A stretch of DNA of 57,211 bases from Acidisoma silvae (lineage in GTDB: Bacteria; Pseudomonadota; Alphaproteobacteria; Acetobacterales; Acetobacteraceae): positions 1 to 57,211 of the forward strand of contig NZ_JAESVB010000019.1 in assembly GCF_020618775.1 (NCBI RefSeq), written 5' to 3'. Made by a program: the position numbers and the translations under genes. Below are positions 1,869 through 49,790 of this stretch, one piece after another. Under the pieces are notes generated by a model. That model searched no databases, was not told the origin of the DNA, and saw nothing but the letters and a program-made list of their open reading frames with translations. Position 1 is the stretch's first letter. Each line of letters starts with the position of its first letter.

Positions 1869-1942
1869 GGCCGCTACCGCTCGCGCCAAGCGGGCCACAA
1901 GGGAAGCCGCTGCGCGGCCGCCGCCCATGGCAGCGCCCTTGT
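1869..1942 (+). promoter_or_regulatory. Structured leader element, copy 1 (divergent copy)
   Basis: This is the most divergent of six copies. The outer stem is ACAAGGG (1897-1903) with CCCTTGT (1936-1942). Inside are hairpin GCCGC/GCGGC (1906-1918) and hairpin CGCCGCC/GGCAGCG (1919-1935, one C-A mismatch). An extra upstream hairpin pairs GGCCGCT (1869-1875) with AGCGGGCC (1889-1896), one G bulged. In the other copies the outer stem is GCAAGGG/CCCTTGC, so the first base pair has changed as a pair. It lies 104 nt before the start of the DUF3991 gene. Confidence 0.6.
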
Positions 1943-2046
1943 CCCCCGCAGGCTTCGCGGTCGCCGGGCTTCGAAAGGATCGGATTGAAGGGCAGGCGAG
2001 AAGCTGCCCGGACAGGCGATCTCCCCGAAATCCGGAGCACAATGCC

Positions 2047-2979
2047 ATGACCGAAGATACTGAACTTGACCTGTTCCGAGCGCAGGTGAACTGCGCCGCT
2101 GTCCTCGAAAACATGGGCCAGCCCTGGCGCCTCGATAAAGACGGCAGCACCAAGCGCGCGATGAAGTATCGCCGTGCTCAAGGCGAGATTCTGATCGTCA
2201 CCCATGACGGCCGCGGCTGGTGGGACCCGAATTCCGAGGCCAAGGGCGACATCTTCACTCTGGTCCAGCACCTCGATCCCAGCCTCAACTTTGGCCATGT
2301 CCGACAGGTGCTGCGCAAATTCGTCGGCATCACGCCGCGCTACGAGCCGGCGGAGCGCGCGCGGAAAGGGCAGGGGGCGGACCGTCCCGTGGCCGAGCGT
2401 TGGGCAGGACGAGCGCGGCTTCGCGCCGGTTGCCCGGCTTGGCGCTATCTCCTCGAACAGCGCCACCTCCCGGCCGATATCCTGTTCGCAGCCGGTGAGC
2501 AGGACATCGTTCGGGATGGTGCCTATGGCAGTGCGTGGTTTGCCCATCGCGACCAGGGCCGGGTCACGCATGTCGAGATCCGTGGACCTGAGTTTAAGGG
2601 GGCGCTGAAAGGCGGCGACAAAGCCCTCTTCCTGTTCCGCCGTGGTCTGATTCCGGTGACGCGGCTTGTCATTGCCGAAGCGCCGATCGATGCGCTCAGC
2701 ATTGCCACGCTGGAGGGTAAGCGCCCCGAAAGTCTCTATGCGGCGACAGGGGGCGGCATGGGACCGGGCACGCTTGCCGCGCTTGAGGCGATCTGCGCTG
2801 GCCTCGGCCCGCGCCCCGATACCATCGTCGAGAGCGCGGCCGACGCCAATCGCGCGGGCGACAGGTTCGCCGAGCGCCACGCCGAAATCGCCCGGACCGC
2901 CAGCGTCGCCTTCAGACGACTGCGACCCCCCGATGATCTCGATTGGAACGACGTTCTGAAACAGGGGAGGGGAGCATGA
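2047..2979 (+). CDS. DUF3991 and Toprim domain-containing protein
   Basis: This 310-residue protein has the two-part layout of the DUF3991/Toprim family common on proteobacterial plasmids and integrative elements. An N-terminal zinc-finger-like, primase-type region (RGWWDPNSEAKGDIFTLVQH) is followed by a Toprim-like domain (VIAEAPIDALSIATLEG near residue 220, TIVESAADANRAGDRFAERH near 265). Toprim folds bind Mg2+ in primases, topoisomerases and nucleases, so a role in DNA processing during transfer or replication is likely but not shown. The frame is open from 1786, but ATG 2047 begins the recognisable domain and follows leader copy 1. Its stop overlaps the next start (ATGA), so it heads a four-gene operon. 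Confidence 0.85.
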   Translation: MTEDTELDLFRAQVNCAAVLENMGQPWRLDKDGSTKRAMKYRRAQGEILIVTHDGRGWWDPNSEAKGDIFTLVQHLDPSLNFGHVRQVLRKFVGITPRYEPAERARKGQGADRPVAERWAGRARLRAGCPAWRYLLEQRHLPADILFAAGEQDIVRDGAYGSAWFAHRDQGRVTHVEIRGPEFKGALKGGDKALFLFRRGLIPVTRLVIAEAPIDALSIATLEGKRPESLYAATGGGMGPGTLAALEAICAGLGPRPDTIVESAADANRAGDRFAERHAEIARTASVAFRRLRPPDDLDWNDVLKQGRGA

Positions 2980-3635
2980 CCACGCAACGCGCCTGGGTTC
3001 TTCTGCCTTCCGGTAATCGTCTCAACCTGTTGGCCCCGGACCCGCATGCCTGGACCGATCGCGACCTCGCCATCGGCCTTTCGCGGACCTATCGCTGGTC
3101 GGGTTATTCGGCATGGGATCATCCACTCTCCGTCGCCCAGCATAGCCTCACGGTTTTAGAGCTTCGGCAGCACGCCGCGAAACGTCGTCTCACGCCGGCC
3201 GAAGCCCGCCGGGAGTTGCTGCACGACGCCACCGAAGCCTTACTCGGCGGCTACGACCCGATCACCCCACTGAAGCCGCATCTCGGCGATGGCTACCAGC
3301 GGCTTGTCGCGCTTCATCAGACGGCAGTGGATATCCGTTATCGGCTCCCCGACTGGGACGAAGAGAGCTATCGCGCACACAAGGCGGCCGACCATCTGGC
3401 CGCCGCAAGCGAAGCCGTTTACGTCGTCGGGTGGTCGCGGGCATCGATCCGCGACGACCTCAGAATCACAATCGAACCCGCCACCGAAGACCCACTCGCT
3501 GGCACGGCCGGTTTCTCGCCTTGGGAACCCTGGCCGGCCAGCTACGCGGCCGAGCGGTTCCTCGATGCCCTCCTTCTCCTGACATCAGACATGGCCGGGA
3601 TCTCCGATCTCGCGCGCAACGCGGAGCTTGCCTGA
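2976..3635 (+). CDS. HD-domain phosphohydrolase
   Basis: This 219-residue protein resembles YfbR-type and other HD-superfamily phosphohydrolases. The histidine of WDHPLSVAQHSL (about residues 48-59) and the HD pair of LLHDATEALLGG (about 88-99) are the expected metal ligands. Members of this superfamily dephosphorylate nucleotides or cleave phosphodiesters. On mobile elements such genes are often annotated only as phosphohydrolases, and the substrate here is unknown. The start overlaps the DUF3991 stop by four bases (ATGA), which indicates translational coupling, and the UvrD-like helicase starts one base after its stop. Confidence 0.85.
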   Translation: MTTQRAWVLLPSGNRLNLLAPDPHAWTDRDLAIGLSRTYRWSGYSAWDHPLSVAQHSLTVLELRQHAAKRRLTPAEARRELLHDATEALLGGYDPITPLKPHLGDGYQRLVALHQTAVDIRYRLPDWDEESYRAHKAADHLAAASEAVYVVGWSRASIRDDLRITIEPATEDPLAGTAGFSPWEPWPASYAAERFLDALLLLTSDMAGISDLARNAELA

Positions 3636-8018: not shown

Positions 8019-8141
8019 GTTCTGGGGTTCCCTTGGTTATCTCTTCATTAGTGGATGTGGGCATCAATGATCCGGAGAGAAGACAGGAAAAAAGGGGCAA
8101 ACAGAGACGACTAAAGAGATGGGGAAAAGACGAAATTGGGT

Positions 8142-8265
8142 GCCGCTTACGCGTGCGGCGCCGCAAGGGTCGCGCGACACGTCGCGCAGCCCGGCTTCGC
8201 CGGCTTCGCCCTTGCCCCGCCTAACCCGCGAAGCGGCCTCCGGAGAGGGTCTTCAGACAAGATCC
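8142..8265 (+). promoter_or_regulatory. Structured leader element, copy 2
   Basis: The outer stem is GCAAGGG (8163-8169) with CCCTTGC (8209-8215). Inside are hairpin GCGCGA/TCGCGC (8172-8187, loop CACG) and hairpin CCGGC/GCCGG (8191-8203, loop TTC). An extra hairpin GCCGC/GCGGC (8142-8159) lies just upstream. A further stem, GGGTCTT (8247-8253) with AAGATCC (8259-8265), ends directly before the AAAGGA ribosome binding site of the 8283 gene. This downstream stem is shared with copy 6. No U-tract follows, so it is not a Rho-independent terminator. Confidence 0.72.
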
Positions 8266-8282
8266 TGAAAGGAAGCCTGAAC

Positions 8283-8420
8283 ATGAAAATCTGTCTTCAC
8301 GGCTTGCGCTTCTGCGGTGTGATCGCGTTCGCCGCCGCTATTTACCTTTTCTTGTGCGCGCCGGGGTTTCTCTCCGATGCGAGCAGCACGGTTCCAGTGT
8401 CATCGGAGGACTCTCCATGA
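8283..8420 (+). CDS. Small membrane-spanning or exported peptide
   Basis: This 45-residue protein has one hydrophobic segment, FCGVIAFAAAIYLFLCAPGFL (about residues 10-30), after a short positively charged start, so it is a single-pass membrane peptide or has a signal sequence. No family is recognised. AAAGGA lies nine bases upstream of ATG 8283, directly after the leader copy 2 stem. Its stop overlaps the next start (ATGA), which makes it the first gene of a six-gene operon. The coupling and the good ribosome binding site support it despite its size. Confidence 0.6.
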   Translation: MKICLHGLRFCGVIAFAAAIYLFLCAPGFLSDASSTVPVSSEDSP

Positions 8421-8866
8421 GCCAGGAGCAATTCCGTTACGACGACTATATCCAACAAGCAAAACTGACGCCGGGAGGTCATCTCCACATTGGCCGCGGT
8501 GGCTTCACCTTGCATCTCGGACGTTCGCGGCTCAGCGGCTACGATCGCGAGACTGTCAAGACCGCCTGCATCGCTGCAGGTGTGCCAGTGATCGACAGTC
8601 GGAACGTCCCGCTCGATCTCGCCGCGAAGCTCGCTGTCAGCGGTCCGATGATCGCCGTGAACAGCGATCCGGACCCGCGCCCTTGGCACGCCTTCGCTTA
8701 TGCCCCGCTTGGTGTGGTTGCCGCCGCCTACCGGAGCGCGGGAGCTGAGGTCTTCAACATCGAGGACGAGGCCTTTGACGAGACAATGTTCCCGGCACTG
8801 TCGGATGGCTCTCCGAAGGCCATCATCGCTGGCTGGCTCGACTACGTGCGCAACGCCGACTTTTGA
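8417..8866 (+). CDS. Conserved-looking hypothetical protein of the backbone operon
   Basis: This 149-residue soluble protein is not one I can assign. It starts at ATG 8417, overlapping the preceding stop (ATGA). It is compact and mixed alpha/beta in appearance (HLHIGRGGFTLHLG, TVKTACIAAGVPVIDSRNVP), without membrane segments or obvious catalytic motifs. It is followed after 11 bases by the DUF6878 gene. Its position among DUF6878, DUF6915 and XF1762 genes suggests an accessory role in the mobile element. Confidence 0.7.
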   Translation: MSQEQFRYDDYIQQAKLTPGGHLHIGRGGFTLHLGRSRLSGYDRETVKTACIAAGVPVIDSRNVPLDLAAKLAVSGPMIAVNSDPDPRPWHAFAYAPLGVVAAAYRSAGAEVFNIEDEAFDETMFPALSDGSPKAIIAGWLDYVRNADF

Positions 8867-8877
8867 AAGGACGGACC

Positions 8878-9333
8878 ATGCAGGACAATCAACTCTCGAT
8901 CATCGAGGCCAATCATGCCCGCTTCGATCGGCTTAGCGCCGAACTTCTTCCACTCAACAAACAGGCGATTTTTGATGCGCTTGCTGCCGCTGGGATCGAG
9001 TATGTGGAGGTCGAATTCGACGGCTATGGCGATGAAGGCTCCTTCCAAGGGATTGTCGCCTACAAGCGCGATAACCAAACAGTCGAGCTTCCCACCTGCG
9101 AGATTAAGCTGAAGACCGTGAATTTTGCCACCGGTTCGATCGAGGTGAAAATCACCACACCTGGCGATGCTACCGAGACGATGGTGAGTGATTTCCTTGA
9201 GGAGACTCATTCTGGCTGGGAGGACGGCGAGGGCGCCTTCGGGCAGTTCACCTTAACGCTGGCCGACCGCAGCATCACACTCGATTACAACGAGCGATTT
9301 ATCGATTCCACGCACCACGACCACGCGTTCTAG
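8878..9333 (+). CDS. DUF6878 family protein
   Basis: This 151-residue acidic protein matches my recollection of the DUF6878 family found on alphaproteobacterial plasmids and islands. Typical features are an N-terminal helix, then IEYVEVEFDGYGDEGSFQG near residue 40 and a C-terminal LTLADRSITLDYNERF followed by a His-rich end (THHDHAF). Function is unknown. ATG 8878 is chosen because AAAGGA precedes it; the upstream TTG at 8863 overlaps the previous stop and is less likely. It is the third gene of the leader copy 2 operon. Confidence 0.78.
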   Translation: MQDNQLSIIEANHARFDRLSAELLPLNKQAIFDALAAAGIEYVEVEFDGYGDEGSFQGIVAYKRDNQTVELPTCEIKLKTVNFATGSIEVKITTPGDATETMVSDFLEETHSGWEDGEGAFGQFTLTLADRSITLDYNERFIDSTHHDHAF

Positions 9334-9342
9334 GAGGGGCAA

Positions 9343-9705
9343 ATGGCGCACGCTTATCACCACGCGGTTTCCTCCGCCAAACGCTTCGGTGGAACGCCTG
9401 AGGACTACCAGGCCATCCATGATTGGATGGACGCCTCGAAAGTGATCCTGGCCGATTTTCGCCACCGCGCGCTAAGGCATCACGCGGAAGGCTGCTACGC
9501 GGCAGAGGCTTTGTTCGGCACCACCATTCGCAACGCCGCTGGTCGTAATGTTCCCGTGCGGCAGATCGCCGAGCAACACATTCTCGAAGATCTAGGCCGC
9601 ATTCCCTCCTTTGCCGATTGGGTGCGGTGCATTCGCCCAGAGCCCTGGATGGCCAGAGCCGGCACAAAGCTCGATGCCGAGGCAGCACGCCATGCAGAAG
9701 AATGA
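9343..9705 (+). CDS. DUF6915 family protein
   Basis: This 120-residue protein fits the DUF6915 family. The start (MAHAYHHAVSSAKRFGG) and the HHAEGCYAAEALFG segment (about residues 46-59) are its recognisable parts, together with an RHRALRHH basic cluster and IAEQHILEDLGRIPSFADW. The repeated histidines suggest metal or nucleic-acid binding, but no function is known. AGGAGG lies just upstream of ATG 9343. The 3' end overlaps the start of the XF1762 gene by 14 bases. Confidence 0.78.
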   Translation: MAHAYHHAVSSAKRFGGTPEDYQAIHDWMDASKVILADFRHRALRHHAEGCYAAEALFGTTIRNAAGRNVPVRQIAEQHILEDLGRIPSFADWVRCIRPEPWMARAGTKLDAEAARHAEE

Positions 9706-10737: not shown

Positions 10738-10765
10738 AAACCTACCGCGCCATGGCCGCACCGCC

Positions 10766-10813
10766 GCAAGGGTCGCGCTGATCGCGCGTCCGGCAAGCCG
10801 GCTTCGCCCTTGC
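10766..10813 (+). promoter_or_regulatory. Structured leader element, copy 3
   Basis: The outer stem is GCAAGGG (10766-10772) with CCCTTGC (10807-10813). Inside are hairpin CGCGC/GCGCG (10774-10788) and hairpin CCGG/CCGG (10790-10801, loop CAAG). Compared with copy 2, both inner hairpins differ in sequence and loop but stay paired. It is 57 nt upstream of the methyltransferase start and shares the upstream words CTACCGCGC and CACCGCC with copies 4 and 5. Confidence 0.7.
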
Positions 10814-10870
10814 CCCGGACGGCCAGGCCGCGGGGTGCGGGAGGGGTAATCCGAACCAAGGAGAACCCCG

Positions 10871-12964
10871 ATGTCATCACGCCAATCTTCAGCGGTCGAG
10901 CTGAGAGAGATCCGTCATTTCCACCTGTTCTGCGGCCTCGGCGGCGGCGCACGCGGCTTCAATCGCGGCAGTGCCCGGGTCGGCAATATGCAGGCCGTTT
11001 TCCGATGCCTTGGCGGCATCGATGTATCGGCCGCCGCAATCCGCGATTTCGAACGGCTCGCCGGCGTACCCGGCACTGTGCTCGATCTGTTCGATGCAGA
11101 CCAATATGCGGCATTTCACGGCCGGTCGGCGCCGGCCGACTGGCGCCAGGCCACGCCCCAAGACATCCAACGTGCCGCCGGCAACGAACGGCCGCACATC
11201 GTTTTCCTGTCAGCACCGTGCAAGGGGTTCTCGGGACTGCTGGCCGAGGCGCTCAGCCTGACAGACAAATATCAGGCGCTAAACCAGCTCACGCTGCGCG
11301 GTGTTTGGTTGATGCTCGAAGCCTTCCAGGACGATCCGCCGGAGCTGATCCTGTTCGAGAATGTCCCGCGCATCGCCCGTCGCGGCCGCGCGCTGCTCGA
11401 CCGGATCGTCGCGCTCCTTCGTCACCACGGCTACGCGGTTGCTGAGACGACACATGATTGTGGTGAGTTGGGCGGCTTGGCTCAGACACGAAAGCGCTTC
11501 CTCCTGGTCGCGCGCCATCAGCAGAAGGTGCCTCCGTTCCTTTACGAGCCGCCCAAGCGCAGCCTGCGCTCCGTTGGCGACATCCTAGGCCGCCTGCCGC
11601 TACCGGGCGACATTATGCAGGCTGGCCCCATGCACCGTGTCCCGTCTCTGCAATGGCAGACCTGGGTCCGCCTCGCCTTTGTCGAGGCTGGGTCCGATTG
11701 GCGCTCGCTGAAGCGTCTGCGGGTCGAAGATGGGCATCTGGCCGATTATGCCCTGGCACCCGATCAGGCATGGCGCAACGGCGTTCTCGGTGTTGGGTCT
11801 TGGGGTGAGCACGCCGGCACGGTAACGGGAAACAGCCGGCCGGGCACGGGTAGCTTCAGTGTCGCTGATCCAAGATGGGTGTCATCGGAACGCTGGAACG
11901 ACGGCCAGCAATATGGGGTGAGGCGTTGGAACGACACCTCGGGCACGATCACCGGGGTCAAATCGCCGGGTCAAGGCACGTTCGCGGTCGCCGATCCGCG
12001 CCATGGCGGCCCGGCCAAGTTCAACAATGTCTACCGGATCGTTCCCTGGAATCAGCCCTGTACCGCCGTCACCAGCAGCCGTGACGGCTGCGTTGCCGAT
12101 CCACGACCGACATCCGGCTTCGAGGGGCAGGGCAAATATAGGGTGACATCCTGGGAGGAGGCGTCGGGCACGATCATCAGCAGCTCGACCACGGGCAATG
12201 GTGGCTTCGCCGTCGCCGACCCGCGCACCGGATGGCCCGATAGCGCCCATACCAGCAAGCTCCATGTGCATCGCTTCCAAGAACCTGCGCGCACTGTCAC
12301 CGGCTCCGATCGCGTTGCCAGCGGTGCTATGTGCGTCGCCGATCCGCGCACGGACGAACGCCGCTCCGGTGCCTTGGGTGTGGCTTGCTGGTCCGATCAC
12401 ACCGGAACGGTCGCAGGCGAAAGCCTCCCCAGCAATGGCAGCTTCGCCGTCGCTGACCCCCGGCCAAACCTCCATCGCGAGAAGGGCGACGCCTATGTGA
12501 ATGGCGGGCATTACGGTGTCATCGGCTGGTCCGACACCGCAAACACCGTCTCCGGCAGCGGGCAGCACGACAACGGCGCCTGGAGTGTCGCTGACCCCCG
12601 TCACCAGGATGGCAACGATCGGCCGGCCGAGGCCCGCCTTCCGACTGCTCAGGATCGACTGGTCGCGGTCATCCGCAGCCTCGACGGGACCTGGCATCGC
12701 CCTTTCACGACCCTCGAACTCGCGTCTCTGCAGAGCCTTGTCGATCCCGAGGAATACCTCGAACTCGACGGCCTCTCGGACGCAGACTGGCGCGAGAGAA
12801 TTGGCAATGCCGTTCCGCCGGATGCCGCGCAGGCTATCGCCGATACGATGGGCACGACGCTCCTCCTAGCCTGGTCGGGCGAGAGCTTCATGCTCTCCGC
12901 TGTGCCCATTTGGGTCCAGCAGATGGCCGTTGGACTCTCGCTGGATCAGGCTGCCATACCGTGA
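10871..12964 (+). CDS. Orphan C5-cytosine DNA methyltransferase with seven internal repeats
   Basis: This 697-residue protein shows the C5-methyltransferase motifs in order: motif I FCGLGGG (20-26), motif IV SAPCKGFSG (114-122) with catalytic Cys117, motif VI ENVPRI (163-168), motif VIII QTRKRFLLVA (205-214), and motifs IX-X in FTTLELASLQSL (612-623) and RIGNAVPP (643-650). Between motifs VIII and IX, where the target-recognition domain lies, are seven copies of a 35-46-residue repeat. Each ends in VADPR (331, 373, 408, 448, 489, 527 and 573). No restriction enzyme gene is nearby, so it is probably a self-protecting or antirestriction methylase. ATG 10871 follows AAGGAG. Its 3' end is duplicated at 23222. 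Confidence 0.93.
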   Translation: MSSRQSSAVELREIRHFHLFCGLGGGARGFNRGSARVGNMQAVFRCLGGIDVSAAAIRDFERLAGVPGTVLDLFDADQYAAFHGRSAPADWRQATPQDIQRAAGNERPHIVFLSAPCKGFSGLLAEALSLTDKYQALNQLTLRGVWLMLEAFQDDPPELILFENVPRIARRGRALLDRIVALLRHHGYAVAETTHDCGELGGLAQTRKRFLLVARHQQKVPPFLYEPPKRSLRSVGDILGRLPLPGDIMQAGPMHRVPSLQWQTWVRLAFVEAGSDWRSLKRLRVEDGHLADYALAPDQAWRNGVLGVGSWGEHAGTVTGNSRPGTGSFSVADPRWVSSERWNDGQQYGVRRWNDTSGTITGVKSPGQGTFAVADPRHGGPAKFNNVYRIVPWNQPCTAVTSSRDGCVADPRPTSGFEGQGKYRVTSWEEASGTIISSSTTGNGGFAVADPRTGWPDSAHTSKLHVHRFQEPARTVTGSDRVASGAMCVADPRTDERRSGALGVACWSDHTGTVAGESLPSNGSFAVADPRPNLHREKGDAYVNGGHYGVIGWSDTANTVSGSGQHDNGAWSVADPRHQDGNDRPAEARLPTAQDRLVAVIRSLDGTWHRPFTTLELASLQSLVDPEEYLELDGLSDADWRERIGNAVPPDAAQAIADTMGTTLLLAWSGESFMLSAVPIWVQQMAVGLSLDQAAIP

Positions 12965-13086
12965 CCCGACGAGCAGCCGCCATCGGCGCTCGGACACAGC
13001 GATGAGTCGGTGGAAAAGAACCTTCGGGGAAAGAAGAAAAACATGAGGGGGGATGAAGCTCCCTACCGCGCTCTGGGCCCACCGCC

Positions 13087-13134
13087 GCAAGGGTCGCGCT
13101 GATCGCGCGCCCGGCAAGCCGGCTGCGCCCTTGC
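13087..13134 (+). promoter_or_regulatory. Structured leader element, copy 4
   Basis: The outer stem is GCAAGGG (13087-13093) with CCCTTGC (13128-13134), with inner hairpins CGCGC/GCGCG and CCGG/CCGG as in copy 3. It is 56 nt upstream of the ArdC start. Copy 5 is its homologue in the second direct repeat and is almost identical, so copies 4 and 5 count as one independent example. Confidence 0.7.
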
Positions 13135-13190
13135 CCCGGGGGACCAGGCGCGGGGCGAGGGAGGGGTCATCCAAATCATGGAGAATCCCG

Positions 13191-14165
13191 GTGCGAAAGC
13201 AGGAAAAGAACCCGCGCGACCATTACCAGGACGTCACCCAACAAGTGATAGAAGCGCTCGAAGCCGGGGCGCCGCCCTGGCGCCAACCCTGGGATTCCGG
13301 AAGATCCGGCGGCCCCTCCATGCCTCAGAACGCCGTCACGGGCGCGGGCTATCGCGGCATCAACGTCCTCACCCTCGGCATCAACCGAATGGCTTTCATG
13401 ACCGGCGATCCCCGTTGGGCGACCTACAAGCAGGCCCAGGAAAGAGGCTGGCAGGTAAAACAGGGCTCACGCGGCGTCACCGGCTATTTCTACAAGCGCA
13501 TCGAGGTTGATGGCGCAAAGAACGAGGGTGGTTCGACGGGCGAAGGCAAATGGTTTCCCATGCTCCGCTCGTTCAAGCTGTTCCACGCAAGCCAAATCGA
13601 CGGCATTCCGGACTATCTACCCCCGACCATTGAAGAAGCGCCCTGGCGCGCGCCGGAAGCGGTCGAAACCATCTTCGCGAACAGCGGCGCCGAGATCCGC
13701 ATCGGCGGCCCTCGCGCCTTCTATTCGACCGTCACGGATCACATCCAGATGCCGCCGGCAGTGGCGTTTCATTCGCCTGCTGCATGGTCGAGTGTCCAGG
13801 TCCATGAGGGCATCCACTGGGCGGGCGCTAAGCATCGTCTGAACCGCGACATGTCCGGCCGCTTCGGATCGAAGTCCTACGCGCGCGAGGAGCTTGTGGC
13901 CGAATTGGGACAGCTCAACGTGTGCAGCGTGCTCGGCATCTCCGAGTGCGATTTCGTCAACGGCGCCGCCTACCTCTCGCACTGGCTCGACATTTTGCGC
14001 GAGGATAAGCGCGAAATCTTTCGCGTCGCGGCCGACGCACAACGCGCTGCGGATTTCCTATTGGCTTTCCATCCCGACTACGCCGCGCGCATGAAATCCC
14101 CTTCGGCCGACGTCGAGGGCGAAGCCTCCGGCAAAACGGAAATCCCTCTCAAGGCCGCTGCCTAA
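13191..14165 (+). CDS. ardC: ArdC-type antirestriction protein (ssDNA-binding zincin)
   Basis: This 324-residue protein has the ArdC layout: an N-terminal ssDNA-binding domain (DHYQDVTQQVIEALEAGAPPW at 10-30, GYRGINVLTLG, RWATYKQAQERGWQVKQG) and a C-terminal metalloprotease-like domain with HEGIH (205-209). A downstream AREELVAEL supplies the third ligand. ArdC proteins bind incoming single-stranded DNA and protect it from host restriction during conjugation. The start is GTG 13191; the homologous copy at 23718 has ATG at the same place. The open frame continues upstream through the leader, but that part is not protein-like. A broken second copy lies at 23718-24724. Confidence 0.92.
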   Translation: MRKQEKNPRDHYQDVTQQVIEALEAGAPPWRQPWDSGRSGGPSMPQNAVTGAGYRGINVLTLGINRMAFMTGDPRWATYKQAQERGWQVKQGSRGVTGYFYKRIEVDGAKNEGGSTGEGKWFPMLRSFKLFHASQIDGIPDYLPPTIEEAPWRAPEAVETIFANSGAEIRIGGPRAFYSTVTDHIQMPPAVAFHSPAAWSSVQVHEGIHWAGAKHRLNRDMSGRFGSKSYAREELVAELGQLNVCSVLGISECDFVNGAAYLSHWLDILREDKREIFRVAADAQRAADFLLAFHPDYAARMKSPSADVEGEASGKTEIPLKAAA

Positions 14166-23572: not shown

Positions 23573-23613
23573 GGGAGGTATGAAGCTCCCTACCGCGCCC
23601 TGGACCCACCGCC

Positions 23614-23661
23614 GCAAGGGTCGCGCTGATCGCGCGCCCGGCAAGCCGGCTGCGCCCTTGC
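23614..23661 (+). promoter_or_regulatory. Structured leader element, copy 5
   Basis: The outer stem is GCAAGGG (23614-23620) with CCCTTGC (23655-23661), with inner hairpins as in copy 4, of which it is the homologue in the second direct repeat. It is 56 nt upstream of the ATG of the broken ArdC copy. Confidence 0.7.
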
Positions 23662-23717
23662 CCCGGGGGACCAGGCGCGGGGCGAGGGAGGGGTCATCCA
23701 AATCATGGAGAATCCCG

Positions 23718-24724
23718 ATGCGAAAGCAGGAAAAGAACCCACGCGACCATTACCAGGACGTCACCCAACAAGTGATAGAAGCGCTTGAAGCCGGGACGCC
23801 GCCCTGGCGCCAACCCTGGGATTCCGGAAAAGCCGGCGGCCCCTCCATGCCTCGGAACGCCATCACGGGCGCGGGCTATCGCGGCATCAACGTCCTCACA
23901 CTCGGCATCAACCGAATGGCTTTCATGACCGGCGATCCCCGTTGGGCGACCTACAAGCGGGCCCAGGAAAGGGGCTGGCAGGTGAAACAGGGCTCACGCG
24001 GCATCACCGGATATTTCTACAAGCGCATCGAGGTTGATGGCGCAAAGAACGAGGGTGGTTCGACGGGCGAAGGCAAATGGTTTCCCATGCTCCGCTCGTT
24101 CACGCTGTTCCATGCGAGCCAGATCGACGGCATTCCGGACTATCTGCCGCCGACCATTGAGGAAGCGCCCTGGCGCTCGCCGGATGCGGTCGAAACCATC
24201 TTCGCCAACAGCGGCGCCGAGATCCGCATCGGCGGTCCTCGCGCCTTCTATTCGACCGTCACGGATCACATCCAATGCCGCCCGCCGTAGCGTTTCATTC
24301 GCCTGCGGCACGGTCGAGCGTCCAGGTCCATGAGGGCATCCACTGGACTGGCGCCAAGCACCGGCTGAACCGCGACATGTCAGGCCGCTTCGGATCGAAG
24401 TCCTACGCGCGTGAAGAATTGGTCGCCGAATTGGGACAACTCAACGTGTGCAGTACGCTCGGGATCGCCGAGTGCGATTTCGTCAACGGCGCCGCCTACC
24501 TCTCGCATTGGCTCGAAATTTTACGCGAGGATAAGCGCGGAATCTTCCGCGTTGCTGCCGACGCACAACGCGCTGCGGACTTCCTGTTGGCTTTCCATCC
24601 CGACTACGCCGCGCGCCTGACTTCGCCGCTTGCCAGCACCGAAGGTGAAGCCGCTGGCGTGACGGAAACGGCTCTCAAGGCCGCGGTGAACCGCGCCGGG
24701 TTTTCCGGAGGCTATTTGGTTTAA
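23718..24724 (+). pseudogene. ardC: Second ArdC copy, frameshifted and hit by an insertion sequence
   Basis: The gene matches the ArdC at 13191 throughout. Compared with it, one G is missing at about 24277-24279 (CCAGATG became CCAATG). The first frame therefore ends at 24290 just before the metalloprotease domain, and the HEGIH part continues in another frame from 24275. The IS3-family element entered one codon before the original stop, so the second frame ends in IS sequence at 24724. The N-terminal ssDNA-binding half could still be made as a 190-residue protein; the full ArdC cannot. Confidence 0.9.
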
Positions 24725-24725
24725 G

Positions 24726-25631
24726 TTACGCGGCTAAAGGTATTGCCTCAAGGCTGGCATAGTAGCGTGCTTCGGCCTCGGCAGGCGGGATATTACCGAT
24801 GGGCTCGAGGATGCGCCGATGATTGAACCAGTCCACCCATTCGAGGGTGGCAAATTCCACAGCTTCAGCGTGGCGCCAAGGTCCTCTGCGATGGATCACC
24901 TCGGCCTTGAACAGGCCATTGATGGTTTCGGCGAGAGCATTGTCGTAGCTGTCACCGACGCTGCCGACGGATGGTTCGATCCCAGCCTCGGCCAAGCGCT
25001 CGGTGTAGCGAATAGACAAGTATTGAACGCCGCGGTCGCTATGATGGATCAACTCATCTTGTCGCGCAGGCCGGCGATCGTGCAGCGCCTGCTCCAAGGC
25101 ATCGAGCACAAATCCGGCCTGGGCCGATCGGGACACGCGCCAGCCGACAATGCGGCGAGCAAAAACATTGATGACGAAGGCGACGTACACGAAGCCTTGC
25201 CACGTAGCGACATAGGTAAAATCGGACACCCACAGAGCATTGGGCTTCGCTGCACGAAACTGCCGGTTCACTTTGTCCCGTGGGCAAGGGGCAGCCGGAT
25301 TGCTGACCGTTGTCTTCACCGGCTTGCCGCGGATCACCCCCGCAAGCCCCATCTGCTTCATAAGCCTGGCCGTCGTGCAGCGCGCGACCGCGCTGCCCTC
25401 CCGGCGCAATTGCCGCCAGACCTTGCGCACACCATAAACTCGGTAATTTTCCTCCCAGACTCGGCGGATCTGTACTCTCAGCACGGTATCCCGTCGTGCA
25501 CGCGGCGGCAGACGCTCCGAATCGCGCCGCCGGGCTGCATAGGCATGATAGGTGGAAGGGGCGATCGGCAGAACGCGGCAGATCGGCTCGACCCCATAGG
25601 TACCCCGATGATCGTCAATGAAGGCGATCAT
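24726..25631 (-). CDS. IS3-family transposase OrfB (integrase catalytic domain)
   Basis: This 301-residue protein has the DDE catalytic residues: Asp137 in WVSDFTYV, Asp199 in HHSDRGVQY and Glu235 in NALAETING, with the D-35-E spacing of IS3. An HTH_21-type segment ([17 protein letters not shown]) precedes the core. It begins at ATG overlapping the orfA stop (AAAAAATGA), so it is made by -1 frameshifting on the A-run as an OrfAB fusion, by coupled reinitiation, or both. Confidence 0.95.
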
Positions 25632-25957
25632 TTTTTGAACGGGCGGTCGAGCTCCGCCGCTGCAAAATAAGCTGACGCCTTGCGCAGAATCTCATTGGCC
25701 TGCCGCAGTTCCCGGTTCTCGCGCTCCAGCGCCTTCATCCGCTCCGCGACCTCCGAAGGAACCCCCGAGGTTCGACCCGCCTCAATATCGGCCTTCTTCA
25801 CCCAGTCCATCAGCGTGTGGGTCGAACAGCCAATCTTCCCCGCAATCGACGTGGCGGCCGCCCACCGCGACGGGTGTTCCCCCTCATGCTCCAAAACCAT
25901 CCGCACCGCTCGGGCACGGACCTCAGGGCTGAATTTGTTCGTCGTCTTGCTCGTCAT
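25628..25957 (-). CDS. IS3-family transposase OrfA (DNA-binding)
   Basis: This 109-residue protein has the usual OrfA helix-turn-helix ([20 protein letters not shown], then [19 protein letters not shown]) and a C-terminal leucine-zipper-like coiled coil ([20 protein letters not shown]). It recognises the IS ends. It ends in the A6 run where the orfB frame begins. Confidence 0.95.
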
Positions 25958-43293: not shown

Positions 43294-44048
43294 CCCCCGA
43301 AATGCAATTCGGACGGTAGGTCGTGCAACCCTTTCAGCAGGAGCATACGCCTCGATAAACGTCCTGGAAGGCATCGAAATCGATGTCCTCCGGCAGGTTC
43401 GCCTTTTTCAATACCGCGGAGTCGGTATGGCGCTGCAGGCGGCCTGAATGCAGATGTGTTCCGCCGGCGAGATAACGGCCATCGGCGGCGTGCTGGGCAT
43501 CATACCTGGGAAGCTCGTCGCAAAGACACCCACGGTGCGACCCCGAAAAATGGCTCGACCGAGGTTCTTGACGGCAAAAGGTACAAATTCCCTGACGCAA
43601 CAACGGTTATCTCCTCTGCATCAATGACATCATCGACGCCAGCTGCCGTTACCGAGAACATGGCCCTCATCATGACCCTCACGCGCATAGGCTCAGCGAT
43701 ACTGAGGACAAGCGACGATGCCCGCCTCGTGCCGGAGGAGCTACTGCATATCTGCGATCCGCGTGCTGGTGACTGGATGAAGGCAAGTACATGCCGTCCT
43801 TGACTGCCGTAATCGGCATAAAATTCGAGGACTATCTACGCTCGATCGGCCTCATCACAACCAAGGTGGCGGATGATCATCCGCCACACCACGTCGATCC
43901 CTTGAAGCGGACGACCTATGCCCTTCTGCAATGAAATGATGGTCATACATCAGGGCAGTTGCACCCTATGCACCTCGTGCGGCCACTCGACGTGCTGACG
44001 AAGCGTGAGCGTGAGAAATCAAAAACGAATCTACAGGGGTGAACCGCT
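43294..44048. other. Intergenic stretch between cargo and backbone, no gene supported
   Basis: About 750 bases of apparently degraded sequence between cargo block 2 and leader copy 6. Open frames at 43334-43603 (minus) and 43456-43803 (plus) do not resemble any family I know. No insertion-sequence ends or target duplications were noticed at this junction. Confidence 0.4.
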
Positions 44049-44180
44049 GCCACTGAGCGATGGCCGCCGCAAGGGTCCGTCACGCCAAAGTATGGCGCAA
44101 CGTCCCGGCTTCGCCGGCTCGCGCCCTTGCCCCGTCCTTCGCCCAGAGGCTTCCGGAAAGGGTCTTCGACAGAGAAGATC
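44049..44180 (+). promoter_or_regulatory. Structured leader element, copy 6
   Basis: The outer stem is GCAAGGG (44069-44075) with CCCTTGC (44124-44130). The first inner hairpin is CGCCA/TGGCG (44083-44097, loop AAGTA), quite different in sequence from copies 2-5 yet perfectly paired. The second is CCGGC/GCCGG (44105-44117). A downstream stem, GGTCTTC (44161-44167) with GAAGATC (44174-44180), ends just before TGAAAGGA, as in copy 2. The DUF6876 start is 65 nt after the outer stem. Confidence 0.72.
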
Positions 44181-44195: not shown

Positions 44196-44573
44196 ATGCA
44201 AACGGAAGAGGCAAAAGACAAACGCACCGAGCTGCCGACGGGTCTCGCCATGCACACGGGGACCGAGACCTGGTTCAGGCATTGGGTTGGTTCGATGCTC
44301 TTTACCGAAGGCGTCCATTTTCTCGCCGAACAGGCGAACGCCTTCTGGCTGATCGACAATGTGGCGTGGGGCCGGATGAACGGGCGCGTGAGCCGCGAAG
44401 CGTTCGTCGCTTGGAAGCTCCGGGTCAACGCCGATAAATCGGCCGAGCTAATCGCAGACGACGGCAATGGCGTCGAGCTGCTGCGCCAGCACGTCCCCTG
44501 GACCGATTTCCCGCTCGAGGAAATCACGCTCTACCTCACCGACAACGTGCTGCTGCTGCCCAGCGAATACTGA
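44196..44573 (+). CDS. DUF6876 family protein
   Basis: This 125-residue protein matches my recollection of DUF6876: TGTETWFRHWVGSMLFTEGV (about residues 21-40), then HFLAEQANAFWLIDNVAW and ITLYLTDNVLLLPSEY at the end. Function is unknown; the family occurs on plasmids and integrative elements. AAAGGA precedes ATG 44196. It heads the operon with the giant methylase-helicase, whose start is 108 bases after its stop. Confidence 0.82.
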   Translation: MQTEEAKDKRTELPTGLAMHTGTETWFRHWVGSMLFTEGVHFLAEQANAFWLIDNVAWGRMNGRVSREAFVAWKLRVNADKSAELIADDGNGVELLRQHVPWTDFPLEEITLYLTDNVLLLPSEY

Positions 44574-44681
44574 GCGGTCCATACCGGCGCGCCCGCGCCG
44601 CCAAACCTTCCTTCAATCCGTCCGCCCGCTCCTGGTCCGCTCTGGCGGATGCCGTCGCGCGCGACCACCCCGGAGATATTC

Positions 44682-47600
44682 ATGACAAATGCTGCACAAT
44701 ACAGCTTCGGCCTGTTCGACACGACGGCCCTTGGCTGGACCCTCGATGCCCCACGCGCCACCTCAGCCCAATCGACAGATCCGACCGTCGAACTGACGCC
44801 GTGCGTCAATGCCGCTCGGCCCGCGACACGGATCGCTGCGGGCAAGAATTACCGGCTCGATGGTGAGCGCATTTTGGCGCGCAGTTGGAGCGGTCGCGCG
44901 CACGACAATATTCGGGCCATCGCGCTCTCGAAAGAGATCGAAGACGCCGGCCGCGCAGCATCCCGCGATGAGCAGGAGCAACTTCTGCGATTCATCGGCT
45001 TCGGCGCCACGGACCTGGCGCAGAACGCCTTCCCGCTGCCCGGCGCCGATGGGTTTCGCGATGGCTGGGAACATCTCGGCCAAAGCCTGGTCAACAGCAC
45101 CAACGACGGCGAATACGCGGCCCTTCAGCGCGCGACCCAATACGCCCACTACACCCCCGAGCCCGTCATCCGCGCCATCTGGCGTGTGGCCCAGCATCTG
45201 GGGTATGGCGGCGGCCGTGTGCTGGAGCCCGGCATGGGCACGGGCCTGTTCTTCGCGCTCATGCCCGATGAACTGCGCGCGTCATCGCGCCTGACCGGGA
45301 TCGAGTACGATCCCGTCACCGCGCGCATCGCACGGCTGCTCCACCCCGAGGCGCGCATCCACTGCGAGGATTACACGCGCAGCCGCCTCGGGGGCGGTTT
45401 CGATCTCGCCATCGGCAATCCACCCTTTGCCGACCGCATCGTGCGCGGCGACCCGACGACAGCAGGCCTCGGGCTGCGCCTGCATGACTACTTCATCGCG
45501 CGCTCAATCAGCCGCCTCCGCCCCGGCGGAATCGCCCTGATGGTCACGAGCACCGGAACGATGGACAAGGCCAGCCGAACCGCCCGTGAGCATATCGCCT
45601 CGATGGCCGATCTGGTCGGGGCCGTCCGCCTGCCGGAGGGCAGCATGAAGGCTACGGCCGGCACAGAAGTCGTCATCGACATTCTGGCCTTCCAGCGGCG
45701 CGTTGAAGGTGCGCCCGCAGCAGGCGCGCCTTGGATGGACCTCATCGAACTTCGCCTCGACGGCGACGAGGGCGGGGACTCTAGCGATGCAGGTGCCGAT
45801 GAGAGCAGAGAGCCCGAGCACCGGCATCTGCGCCGTGGCGTGGTACACATCAACGAGTATTTCGCGGCTCACCCCGAGATGGTCCTGGGATCGCACGGCC
45901 AACGTCGGGGCATCTACGGGCCCGGTTGGTCCTACACCTGCCGCCCGAACGCGCCCTTCGCCACGATCGAGGCGCAGCTCGACCAGGCGCTCGGCCGTCT
46001 GCCCGCCGGCATTACGACCCCTCCGAGCGCTGACCATGACCGTGAGGATGACGACGAAATCGCGTCCGTCGGCCTGGCCGCCGATGGCGCCACGGTCAGG
46101 GAGGGCTCCTATGTCGCCGGGAAGGATGGCCGTCTCTGTCAGATCATCGACGGTCGAAGCAGCCCGGTCGCCATCCGTACCGGCAAGGGCGGCGAGGGCC
46201 TGACACCGAAGGCCGCCAAGGTCATCCGCGCCCTCATGCCGATCCGCGACGCGGTGCGCGAGGTGCTGCGCACCCAGGCCGCGGGGCGGCCTTGGATGCA
46301 GGCGCAGGTCCGGCTGCGCACCGCTTATTCGACCTTCATCCGCTACCACGGTCCGATCAATCATACCGTCGTCACCGTCACCCGCGACGCTGAGAGCGGG
46401 GAGGAGAAGGAAACCCATCGCCGGCCGAACCTGGCGCATTTCGCCGACGACCCGGATTGCTGGTTGGTCGCCTCGATCGAGGATTACGACCTGGAAGCCG
46501 GCATCGCGAAGAAAGGGCCGATCTTCGACCAACGCGTGGTGTCGCCGCCGATGACCCCGGTCATCACGTCGGCCACTGACGCGCTGGCCGTAGCGCTGAA
46601 CGAGGTGGGCTTCGTCGATCCGGAGCGTCTGGCCGAGCTGCTGGAATGCGAACCCAAGGACGCGCTCGACCGCCTCGGTGCGACCGTCTTTCGCAATCCT
46701 TTGACCGAAGGTTGGGAGACGGCTGATGCCTATCTCTCGGGGCCGGTTCGCACCAAGCTCGCCGTTGCCCGCGACGCCGCGCTCCTCGATCCTCAGTATG
46801 CCCGCAACGTCGAGGCTTTGCTTGAAGCGCAGCCGCAGGACATCCCCCCCTCGGGGATCACAGCCCGCCTCGGCGCGCCGTGGATTCCGACGAAGGATAT
46901 CGAGGCCTTCACCCTTGAGGTGATGGAAACCGAGACGCGCATCTTCCACATGGAGGAAGTCGCGACATGGACCGTGGACGGCCATCGCTTCGCCACGAGC
47001 GCCGCCGGAACCTCCGAATGGGGCACCCCTCGGCGGCATGCCGGCTCGCTGCTGCACGACGCGCTGAACAGCGCCACCCCGCAGATCTTCGATACCGAGA
47101 TCGTGGACGGCAGCGAGCGCCGGGTGCTGAACCCGGAGGCGACGGAGGCCGCGAAGGAAAAGCTGAACAAGATCAAAACCGCGTTCTCGACCTGGGTCTG
47201 GGCCGACCACGAACGCGCCGATCGGCTCTCGCGGCTCTACAATGATCGCTTCAACAATCTGGTGCCCCGCCATTTCGATGGTGCGCACCTGACCTTGCCC
47301 GGCGCCAGCGACATCATCCGGCTCTATGGCCACCAGAAGCGGGTCATCTGGCGCATCATCACGTCCGGCAGCACCTACATGGCGCACGCAGTTGGCGCTG
47401 GAAAAACCTTCTCGATGGCCGCCGCGATCATGGAGCAGCGCCGCCTCGGGCTCATCTCAAAGGCCATGCTCGTCGTTCCCGGCCATTGCCTGGCCCAGGC
47501 AAGCCGGGAGTTCCTTCAGCTTTACCCGACCGCCCGCATCCTGGTCGCTGACGAGACAAATTTCGCCAAGGATAAACGCGCCCGGTTCCTGGCACGCGCG

Positions 47601-49790
47601 GCCACGGGTTCGTGGGATGCGATCATCATCACGCATTCGGCCTTCCGCTTCATCGGCGTTCCCGCAAATTTCGAGCGCGAGATCATCTCGCAGCAGATCG
47701 ATACCTTCGAGGCGCTGAAGCTCAAGGCCGACGCTGACGATCGCGTCACGCGCAAGCGGCTGGAGGCGATGCGCGAGTGCCTTTCGGATCAACTGGAAGC
47801 GATCAAGGATCGGCGCGACGATATGGTGACAATCGACGAGATCAGCGTTTCGCAGATCATCGTCGACGAAGCGCAGGAGTTCCGCAAACTCTCCTTTGCC
47901 ACCAACCGCCTCAACCTAAAGGGCGTCGATCCCGAAGGTTCACAGCGTGCCTGGGACCTTTACGTCAAGATGCGCTTCATCGATTCGAGGAATCCACGCC
48001 GCGCCCTCATCCAAGCCTCGGGCACGCCGATCACCAACACACTCGGCGAGATGTTCACGCTGCTGCGGTTTCAGAACGAGACGACGCTTCACGACCGCGG
48101 CGTTCACGAGTTCGACGCCTGGGCGGCCTCATTCGGTGATACGCGCACGGAGCTGGAGCTTCAGCCCTCGGGCTCCTACAAGCCGGTCGAGCGCTTCTCG
48201 CGGTTTGTGAACGTGCCCGAGCTGATTGACATGTTCCGGGCCTGTTCGGATATCGTCCTCAAGGACGACCTGCGGCAGTACCTCCGCCTGCCCAAAATCA
48301 AGACCGGTCAGCGCCAATTGGTCACCGCCGACGCCAGCGAAGCCTTCCGCGACTACCAGGCGCACCTCGCCGACCGCATCTCGGAGATCGAAAGTCGCAC
48401 CCGCAAGGTCCAGAAAGGTGACGACATCCTGCTCGCTGTCATCACGGATGGCCGTCACGCCGCCATCGACATGCGCCTGGTCGGCCTCGCCAACGATAAT
48501 GAGCCTGATAACAAGCTCAACAAACTAATCGCCACTGTCCACGACATCTGGCTGCGCACAGCCAATGATCGCTTCAAGAAGCCGGACGGATCGCCTGATC
48601 CCATCCCCGGCGGCGGACAGATCATCTTCAGCGACCTCGGCACGCTGGAGGCGGAAAAGACGCGCGGCTTCTCAGCCTATCGCTGGATCAGGAACGAGCT
48701 TGTCCGTCTCGGCGTCCCGGCGTCGGATATCGCCATTGTCCAAGACTACAAGAAGACCGCCGACAAGCAGCGCCTGTTCAATGAGTTCAACGCGGGCCGC
48801 ATTCGTGTCCTGATCGGTTCGACCAAAAAGATGGGCACCGGGGCCAACGTCCAACGGCGCCTGAAGGCCGAGCATCACCTCGATGTGCCCTGGCTACCCT
48901 CGGAAATCGAGCAGCGGGAAGGCAGGATCGAACGGCAGGGCAATCAATACGACGAGATCGAGATCTTCGCCTACGCCACGCTCGGCTCCCTCGACGCGAC
49001 GATGTGGCAAAACAACGAGCGCAAACAGCGCTTCGTATCCGCTGCCCTTTCCGGTGATCGCAGCATCCGGACCATCGACGATATCGGCGAGGCCGCCAAT
49101 CAGTTCGCACTGGCGAAAGCCATCGCATCTGGGGATGCGCGGCTGATGCAGAAGGCCGGACTGGAAGCCGAGATCGCACGGCTCGACCGCCAGCGGGCAG
49201 CGCATTTCGACGATCAGTTGAACATCCGACGCCGCATCGCCGACGCCGACGCAGAGCATCGCCATGCAACCCGCCGGATTGCCGATATCGGCAAAGACCT
49301 CATCCAGCACGTCTCCACGCGCGGGGATGCCTTCCGCATGGAATTCGAAGGCCAGCTCGTCACCGATCGCCGGGTCGCAGGCACATCGCTTCTGTCCAAG
49401 GTGCGCCTTGCCGAACGCGGAAAGGTCCCGATGGAGAAGGATCTCGGCAGCATCGGCAGTTTCGCGCTCGCCTGCCACGCCGACCGCGGTTGGCGGCGGG
49501 AATTCGAGGCGAGCCTTCTCCTGCGCCGCAACGGGCTCGATCAGGAAATCCCCTTTGACGACGAGCTAACGCCATTGGGCCTGATGTCTCGGATCGAACA
49601 TATCCTCGACCGTCTCGGGATCGACCTGCAGGAGCAGGAACGCCGTGCGGTCGAGGCCCAGAATCGCCTGAACGGCTACCAGGAGCGCAGCGGCCAGACC
49701 TTCTCGCTGCAAGCCGAACTCGACGCGAAGCTGGCCCAACTCGCTCGGCTCGATGCCGACCTCGCGCAGACCGCACAAAAGGCGGCCTAA
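44682..49790 (+). CDS. Giant N6-adenine methylase-like/SNF2-type helicase protein (DarB-like)
   Basis: This 1702-residue protein has two enzymatic halves. The N-terminal half has a SAM-binding motif VLEPGMGTG (180-188) and the amino-methyltransferase motif NPPF (246-249, usual form NPPY). The second half has superfamily 2 helicase motifs: Walker A GAGKT (905-909), DEAQ (1062-1065) and a C-terminal helicase domain (GSTKKMGTGANVQRR, EIEQREGRIERQG near 1413). A C-terminal coiled-coil-like part follows. The layout resembles the large methylase-helicase proteins of plasmids and phages, including the P1 antirestriction protein DarB. A role in protecting transferred DNA is inferred. ATG 44682 starts family-like sequence. 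Confidence 0.9.
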   Translation: MTNAAQYSFGLFDTTALGWTLDAPRATSAQSTDPTVELTPCVNAARPATRIAAGKNYRLDGERILARSWSGRAHDNIRAIALSKEIEDAGRAASRDEQEQLLRFIGFGATDLAQNAFPLPGADGFRDGWEHLGQSLVNSTNDGEYAALQRATQYAHYTPEPVIRAIWRVAQHLGYGGGRVLEPGMGTGLFFALMPDELRASSRLTGIEYDPVTARIARLLHPEARIHCEDYTRSRLGGGFDLAIGNPPFADRIVRGDPTTAGLGLRLHDYFIARSISRLRPGGIALMVTSTGTMDKASRTAREHIASMADLVGAVRLPEGSMKATAGTEVVIDILAFQRRVEGAPAAGAPWMDLIELRLDGDEGGDSSDAGADESREPEHRHLRRGVVHINEYFAAHPEMVLGSHGQRRGIYGPGWSYTCRPNAPFATIEAQLDQALGRLPAGITTPPSADHDREDDDEIASVGLAADGATVREGSYVAGKDGRLCQIIDGRSSPVAIRTGKGGEGLTPKAAKVIRALMPIRDAVREVLRTQAAGRPWMQAQVRLRTAYSTFIRYHGPINHTVVTVTRDAESGEEKETHRRPNLAHFADDPDCWLVASIEDYDLEAGIAKKGPIFDQRVVSPPMTPVITSATDALAVALNEVGFVDPERLAELLECEPKDALDRLGATVFRNPLTEGWETADAYLSGPVRTKLAVARDAALLDPQYARNVEALLEAQPQDIPPSGITARLGAPWIPTKDIEAFTLEVMETETRIFHMEEVATWTVDGHRFATSAAGTSEWGTPRRHAGSLLHDALNSATPQIFDTEIVDGSERRVLNPEATEAAKEKLNKIKTAFSTWVWADHERADRLSRLYNDRFNNLVPRHFDGAHLTLPGASDIIRLYGHQKRVIWRIITSGSTYMAHAVGAGKTFSMAAAIMEQRRLGLISKAMLVVPGHCLAQASREFLQLYPTARILVADETNFAKDKRARFLARAATGSWDAIIITHSAFRFIGVPANFEREIISQQIDTFEALKLKADADDRVTRKRLEAMRECLSDQLEAIKDRRDDMVTIDEISVSQIIVDEAQEFRKLSFATNRLNLKGVDPEGSQRAWDLYVKMRFIDSRNPRRALIQASGTPITNTLGEMFTLLRFQNETTLHDRGVHEFDAWAASFGDTRTELELQPSGSYKPVERFSRFVNVPELIDMFRACSDIVLKDDLRQYLRLPKIKTGQRQLVTADASEAFRDYQAHLADRISEIESRTRKVQKGDDILLAVITDGRHAAIDMRLVGLANDNEPDNKLNKLIATVHDIWLRTANDRFKKPDGSPDPIPGGGQIIFSDLGTLEAEKTRGFSAYRWIRNELVRLGVPASDIAIVQDYKKTADKQRLFNEFNAGRIRVLIGSTKKMGTGANVQRRLKAEHHLDVPWLPSEIEQREGRIERQGNQYDEIEIFAYATLGSLDATMWQNNERKQRFVSAALSGDRSIRTIDDIGEAANQFALAKAIASGDARLMQKAGLEAEIARLDRQRAAHFDDQLNIRRRIADADAEHRHATRRIADIGKDLIQHVSTRGDAFRMEFEGQLVTDRRVAGTSLLSKVRLAERGKVPMEKDLGSIGSFALACHADRGWRREFEASLLLRRNGLDQEIPFDDELTPLGLMSRIEHILDRLGIDLQEQERRAVEAQNRLNGYQERSGQTFSLQAELDAKLAQLARLDADLAQTAQKAA

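Follow-up and report, generated by a model that had tools for sequence, protein, structure and literature searches.

Work on single-strand promoters of the Frpo/ssi kind was reportedly done by Masai and Arai in 1997, and hairpin promoters are also used by the virion RNA polymerase of phage N4. According to the available text of PMC9849209, F and ColIb-P9 have Frpo/ssi promoters at work in their leading regions, single-strand promoters have been tested in F, where one lies upstream of ssb, and the tested downstream genes lose their early signal in recipients when Frpo1 or Frpo2 is deleted. Samuel et al. used BLAST to collect Frpo homologues and identified new candidates from their -35/-10 consensus, UP element and structure, and in the main text of their paper, as far as accessible, the word 'alphaproteobacteria' is absent (PMC11541004); a later survey, in its accessible part, reuses the sequences of that paper (PMC12826799).

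The window, by which we mean the whole stretch of 57,211 nucleotides of Acidisoma silvae analysed here, contains six copies of a structured element, and in our best reading these may belong to a new family of Frpo-like single-strand promoters, unrelated to Frpo in sequence and situated in plasmid leading regions. Like Frpo/ssi, the element appears to form a long interrupted stem in the template strand, precedes the methylase, anti-restriction and ParB-like genes of leading regions, and is present in more than one copy, the copies being directed towards the transfer genes. F itself carries its methylase, antirestriction, ssb, ParB, psiB and DUF932 genes on a single strand, directed to the traM-J-Y side. 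The hairpin upstream of ssb of F carries, in our own fold, TTGTGG, followed at 17 nt by GACAGT; the last bases of TTGTGG are where a 2x2 loop opens. This resembles the TTGCGG of our element, the GG of which sits in a 2x2 internal loop. In Frpo1, the second copy of F, TTGCGG is present, but the -10 is less clean and the 2x2 loop was not reproduced in the shorter segment folded. In both F segments folded, the minus strand was the more stable one, by 2.5 and 0.8 kcal/mol.

With Frpo, for which the F sequences were compared, the element has nothing in common at the sequence level apart from short matches (best blastn E 0.021, an 11-base core match on the other strand; best E 2.7 on the F stretch with R1, a model built from 64 sequences of the element). 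It folds into a GC-rich three-way junction with small hairpins, whereas the F stem is A/T-rich, it carries no TATAAT, and it occurs mainly in Acetobacteraceae. Since both similarity to the Frpo of F and a TATAAT are lacking, the element would, in the best reading, work like Frpo and not be a member by sequence; for the same reason, searches by BLAST and consensus, as described in the available text of PMC11541004, are expected to miss the family. As in phage N4, the promoter would be read from a DNA hairpin whose loop is small, whereas the N4 enzyme is phage-encoded and its hairpin is short and not conjugative.

Architecture and occurrence of the element

Comparison of the pattern matches with one another revealed that the element is larger than first described. 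It measures 93-108 nt and consists of an interrupted stem ending in a three-way junction. From outside to inside, an outer stem of about 18 positions, variable in sequence and complementary (48-98% Watson-Crick paired per position), is followed by a symmetric 2x2 CC/CC loop, by the near-invariant GCAAGGG/CCCTTGC stem and, in most folds, by two small hairpins. GCAAGGG/CCCTTGC, taken for the outermost stem in the original prediction, is therefore the middle of the element, and the variable complementary stem runs about 20 nt further out on both sides. The foot of the 5' arm bears a conserved TRCC, the 3' arm is followed by a G-rich stretch, often GGGAGGGGTCTTC, and a small hairpin in the 5'UTR is often located between the element and the start codon. 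A small ORF through the element was considered and rejected, as the element lengths are not multiples of three. In many copies (e.g., at loci L028 and L059), about 40 nt of the upstream flank are strikingly purine-rich on the coding strand, which may perhaps keep this strand unstructured.

Direct inspection of the sequence bore out the positions and the plus-strand orientation that had been given for the six copies (Table 1). The distances from the core to the start codon, claimed to be 56-104 nt, are 104, 67, 57, 56, 56 and 65 nt for copies 1 to 6, and the near-identity of copies 4 and 5 is in line with the claim that they go back to one shared event. The pattern GCAAGGG-N25..55-CCCTTGC gave five matches in the window versus none in 100 dinucleotide shuffles; copy 1 is the variant ACAAGGG/CCCTTGT, in which A and T retain pairing at the outermost position. 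No further copy was detected in the window with R1 at E<=0.5, so that ten further sampled ORFs (LysR, transposase, epimerase, molybdopterin enzyme, AraC, aldo-keto reductase and hydrolase among their products) lack the element. Rfam likewise contained no family matching at any copy (whole window at gathering scores; E<=1 around copy 2), in agreement with the earlier failure to recognise a named family. The only Rfam match in the window was an ALIL pseudoknot at 25557-25673 (minus strand), at the start of a transposase gene with rve and HTH_21 (24729-25631, minus strand).

Table 1. Element copies and the genes that follow them. Copy coordinates are given in gene orientation; the minus strand is the proposed folding strand, on which the T of TRCC is an A.
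Feature	Position	Strand	Details
Element copy 1	1873..1965	+ (gene orientation)	core ACAAGGG 1897 to CCCTTGT 1942; T of TRCC 1875; 40.7 bits, weakest copy
Element copy 2	8139..8238	+	core 8163-8215; T of TRCC 8141
Element copy 3	10741..10837	+	core 10766-10813; T of TRCC 10743
Element copy 4	13062..13157	+	core 13087-13134; T of TRCC 13064
Element copy 5	23589..23684	+	core 23614-23661; T of TRCC 23591; near-identical to copy 4
Element copy 6	44046..44153	+	core 44069-44130; T of TRCC 44048
Seventh copy, same genome	contig C27, stretch L016 8245-8341	-	precedes 557-aa ParB-like gene (matches plasmid ParB-like proteins)
DUF3991 + Toprim gene	2047..2979	+	first gene after copy 1 (Pfam); UvrD-like helicase gene further on at 3628
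45-aa ORF after copy 2	8283..8420	+	no Pfam match
DUF6878 and DUF6915 genes	8863-9333 and 9343-9705	+	further on in the 8283 operon (Pfam)
C5 cytosine DNA methylase-like gene after copy 3	10871..12964	+	Pfam
ArdC (ArdcN + zincin-like metallopeptidase) after copy 4	13191..14165	+	single ORF, Pfam
Second ArdC after copy 5	23718..24724	+	two overlapping ORFs: 23718-24290 (ArdcN), 24275-24724 (metallopeptidase)
DUF6876 gene after copy 6	44196..44573	+	Pfam
1713-aa gene next after DUF6876	44649-49790	+	weak SNF2/helicase/Eco57I matches

The genome to which the window belongs (5.4 Mb, 82 contigs) contains the loose pattern CAAGGG..CCCTTG at 18 places, seven of which are the element, and R1 gave seven matches at E<=0.1, namely the six window copies and one on contig C27. 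Five of these seven copies are in the R1 alignment and match it by construction, so the informative part of this search is the absence of other matches. On the upstream side of the C27 copy, ORFs were seen that resemble IS ATPase and transposase genes, as read by eye from the translations.

Among 250 genomes of the order, 24 (including that of A. silvae) gave R1 matches at E<=0.001, some of them by construction because the model was built partly from those sequences, and all belong to the same family, Acetobacteraceae. The exact pattern was present in 2 of 385 genomes of the class (A. silvae and one other), and a reversed-pattern control in none of the 385. Such a patchy occurrence is expected of mobile DNA. 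Acetobacteraceae also make up most of the 80 record titles listed from the pattern scan, the others listed being Rhodoblastus, Methylosinus, Sinorhizobium and metagenome-assembled contigs labelled Burkholderiales, Acidobacteria and Granulicella. In the titles and abstract openings listed, which covered mostly open-access papers, no prior description of the element was recognised.

The exact-pattern scan of genome contigs yielded at least 117 stretches with at least 133 matches, at least 127 of them distinct. From 127 distinct matches and the six window copies, 132 sequences with enough flank were folded, and 117, falling into 41 clusters, were kept as members. Membership was decided by an exact core and by pairing energy, symmetric for both strands, and independence was approximated by clustering at 80%. 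Fifteen folded sequences were dropped, eight being judged chance matches, several of them actinobacterial (L018, L033, L049, L052, L074, L080, L108 and L133), and seven having a symmetric energy above -20 (L035, one of L038, L040, L056, L057, L083 and L131), although several of the latter are probably true members.

Downstream genes and position relative to the relaxase gene

The original prediction placed every copy before a backbone gene. By Pfam this applies to the DUF3991 gene, the methyltransferase, both ArdC copies and DUF6876, whereas the ORF at 8283 itself has no match and the recognisable genes of its operon, DUF6878 and DUF6915, lie further on. Over the whole family, a first ORF was found for 113 of the 117 members in a search confined to the strand of the element, at a median of 66 nt from the core (41-170 nt, 10th-90th percentile). 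Out of 104 non-redundant downstream ORFs, 85 were scanned with Pfam, the rest being short, cut or near-duplicates, and copy 2 being represented by its DUF6878 ORF. The most frequent domains were ArdcN (23) and ParB_N (16), followed by DUF3991 (5), DUF6876 (4), DUF5983 (4) and DUF6878 (3); a C5 methylase, DpdA and a ribonucleotide reductase were single cases, and many ORFs had no match at 1e-5.

Furthermore, 29 genome handles (28 distinct genomes, picked for carrying the element) comprised 117 R1 matches on 48 contigs, again partly by construction, with up to eight copies per contig, and in all 26 contigs with two or more copies every copy points in one direction. G022 was left out of this orientation count, its matches being identical to those of G252. 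These data support the view that one cis-element is common to the backbone operons, and they do not fit a scattered REP-type repeat.

A gene for a relaxase of the TrwC type (MobF) was present on 17 of the contigs with copies. It lies downstream of the copies in 15 of 17 (at 8-45 kb) and on the same strand in 15 of 17, both being true for 14. The relaxase gene is on the opposite strand in G119:C3 and in G250:C10, which comes from a close relative by element sequence; the contig ends of G250:C10 overlap by 103 bases, so this contig is probably circular, and its copies still point to the coupling-protein/relaxase end. In the third exception, G254:C6, in which no end overlap was found, the relaxase is downstream only if the contig is circular. 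The setting is thus of the Frpo type, with copies co-oriented before establishment and anti-defence genes, the leading-region position being judged by the relaxase gene. The contig of the window itself gave no relaxase match, and we infer the direction of transfer of its element from the position of the relaxase in these relatives.

On plasmid plas4 of Acetobacter sp. AC2005, two copies and the genes for ssb, UvrD, DUF3991, zincin, DUF6876 and ParB all share the strand of the MobF relaxase gene, which lies downstream of them. As judged by R1, only the ParB gene and one hypothetical gene of this plasmid are preceded by a copy. The ssb gene, on the leading side (L146 24141-24629, minus strand), has no R1 match in front, in contrast to the ssb gene of F with its upstream single-strand promoter (PMC9849209, available text). 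Two Rhodovastum plasmid stretches have a single weaker R1 match each, before DUF3991 and not before the ParB gene, and in RHOApb a mobF gene follows further on, on the same strand as the element.

A different long hairpin precedes a related ParB-like gene on plasmids of Hyphomicrobiales, where 349 plasmid records match (L158 1276-1450; L159-L162, L163-L169) and, among the matches listed, no annotated feature lies under the match in 28 of 30. The two leaders have in common a long hairpin before a ParB-like gene, annotated as such in 11 of 12 Hyphomicrobiales stretches, and a similar GTCTTC..GAAGAC hairpin after it. They differ in their conserved core, and R1 found no match at E<=1 in the five Hyphomicrobiales sequences tested. 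Their GCAGGGC..GCCCCGC stem contains an A.C mismatch that is A-T in 2 of 8 aligned sequences, 4 of 12 loci without the anchor motif having been left out of this alignment. An exact pattern for the hairpin, probably over-strict, gave no match in 289 genomes of the class. This hairpin is possibly a second class of single-strand promoter.

The strand that folds

RNAalifold, applied to the plus-strand alignment, gave only 7 pairs, and a symmetric fold, in which G.T and A.C are scored alike, was therefore adopted for the 117 members and their 41 clusters. An RNA stem on the coding strand takes G.U and rejects A.C, whereas a stem on the other strand reads reversed, so the type of mismatch discloses the folding strand. 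Among single non-Watson-Crick pairs between Watson-Crick neighbours, read on the coding strand, A.C outnumbered G.T by 73 to 15 in the outer stem and by 19 to 7 in the inner one. When counted by cluster, 25 showed an excess of A.C and 6 an excess of G.T, with 10 ties (sign-flip p=4e-5), and the asymmetry was spread over many stem positions. Base composition, or A-richness, was rejected as its source, because the composition of the arms predicts slightly more G.T (0.087) than A.C (0.078) and because T prevails over A among the other single mismatches (33 versus 3). In the nearby 5'UTR hairpin, the G.U excess predicted for it was not seen, a crude stem finder counting 82 G.T versus 80 A.C.

Loops and stability point the same way. 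GNA triloops with a C-G closing pair have unusual stability in DNA. When the 41 cluster representatives are read on the minus strand, GNA accounts for 19 of their 35 triloops, and on the plus strand for none of them. The minus strand is also the more stable one in 37 of 41 clusters with DNA energies and in 30 of 41 with RNA energies. As the downstream genes have the minus strand as their template, the folding strand appears to be the template strand and not the mRNA. It would also be the transferred strand. If this reading is true, mismatch asymmetry can reveal which DNA strand was selected to fold.

Proposed promoter geometry and competing explanations

In the stem, TTGCGG and an A at the distance of -11 are conserved. 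The strict form TRCCRC keeps a spacing of 17-19 nt to GCAAGGG in 82 of 117 members, and just two cases with another spacing were met within the 60 nt upstream; 34 members lack the strict form, most of those listed having a variant. TRCC itself stands at 17-19 nt in all six window copies, and its T (A on the folding strand) is present in 60 of 64 aligned rows. With a looser motif, 99 of 117 members are covered, the T being unpaired in 56, opposite G in 32 and Watson-Crick-paired in 11, while 18 of 117 have not even the looser T motif at this spacing. For spacers of 17-19, the A after TTG falls at the -11 A of a sigma-70 promoter. No TATAAT-like -10 hexamer was found, only the A of that box being conserved. 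The G-rich run ends about eleven bases further along the template from this A, and its end is a plausible candidate for the transcription start.

Folding strand, geometry and setting together lead us to read the element as a single-strand promoter for protective genes, used from the entering strand; we consider it probable that all copies are Frpo/ssi-type promoters of single-stranded DNA, situated in the template strand as it enters the recipient. The mobile element would enter as one strand, the minus strand of the window and template of these genes, and this strand would fold back at each copy into the long interrupted stem. The other arm would act as non-template, presenting CCC-TTGCGG, i.e. 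CCCTTGCGG, and then GGYA 17-19 nt past TTGC. The folded arm would thus mimic a double-stranded promoter, with TTG as the -35 core, the next GG within the 2x2 internal loop, and the highly conserved, mostly unpaired A in the -11 position. RNA polymerase would bind the hairpin and start close to the foot of the stem, where GGGAGGGGTC is conserved; for the six copies, this would place the start an estimated 20-70 nt ahead of the start codon. Anti-restriction and establishment genes would then be transcribed until second-strand synthesis removes the hairpin.

Alternatively, the element might be an ssi site for complementary-strand synthesis, with the folded T-strand either loading a primase or priming by means of RNA, and with control of the genes as a secondary effect. 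The same folding-strand evidence applies to this explanation, and the DUF3991-Toprim gene, the product of which we take to be primase-like, is among the targets. Frpo transcripts serve both purposes according to the accessible text of PMC7736820. Priming, however, requires neither a position at a median of 66 nt before an ORF start nor up to eight copies per contig, and the -35/-11 spacing is conserved, so that we regard a mere priming site as unlikely.

A structured mRNA leader, in which the plus-strand RNA folds and a protein, a ligand or the ribosome regulates the backbone operons, would agree with the same-strand ORF start at 41-170 nt past the core (10th-90th percentile, n=113, same-strand search only), with the small hairpin often found before the start codon, with the purine-rich upstream flank of many copies and with the 32 of 99 members in which the conserved T faces a G, a combination pairable in RNA. 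It was dropped as first choice because the stems carry A.C instead of G.U, the reverse of what RNA tolerates. The GNA triloops, a preference of DNA, and the lack of an Rfam match at the copies speak against it as well, as does the recovery of nothing but the 7-bp core by RNAalifold, from an alignment that is poor in the outer 3' arm; we hold a leader to be rather improbable. The original prediction of a regulon-wide cis-element is thus upheld in that the backbone operons share it and it is not of REP type, whereas its form as an mRNA leader is disfavoured by mismatches, loops and stability.

In a third explanation, the inverted repeat CGCCGCAAGGG/CCCTTGCCCC serves in duplex DNA as the operator of a plasmid regulator, for which the near-invariant palindromic core and the shared gene set may be adduced. 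The distance between the arms of the core varies widely (a gap of 20-50 was allowed and is used), the outer arms vary yet stay complementary, which duplex binding does not need, and the two inner hairpins are kept, all of which makes a duplex operator very improbable. A REP- or attC-like hairpin spread by a transposase, suggested by its repetition within mobile DNA, is largely refuted and scarcely credible, given that the genome-wide model search found no REP-type scatter, 7 of 7 matches preceding the start codon of a backbone-type or ParB-like gene, and that 26 of 26 multi-copy contigs are co-oriented.

Returning to the single-strand promoter, a broader proposal, which we put forward tentatively and with somewhat less than even confidence, is that an independently evolved class of three-way-junction promoters, unrelated to Frpo, drives a multi-operon zygotic programme of up to eight copies per contig in alphaproteobacterial plasmids and related mobile elements, with a second class on Hyphomicrobiales plasmids. 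If true, the use of single-stranded DNA for transcription during entry would be a general solution, one that evolved more than once. If the reading as a single-strand promoter is right, the element would show which genes are expressed first in a large set of alphaproteobacterial mobile elements and, as each copy points at one operon, would offer a handle for new anti-restriction genes.
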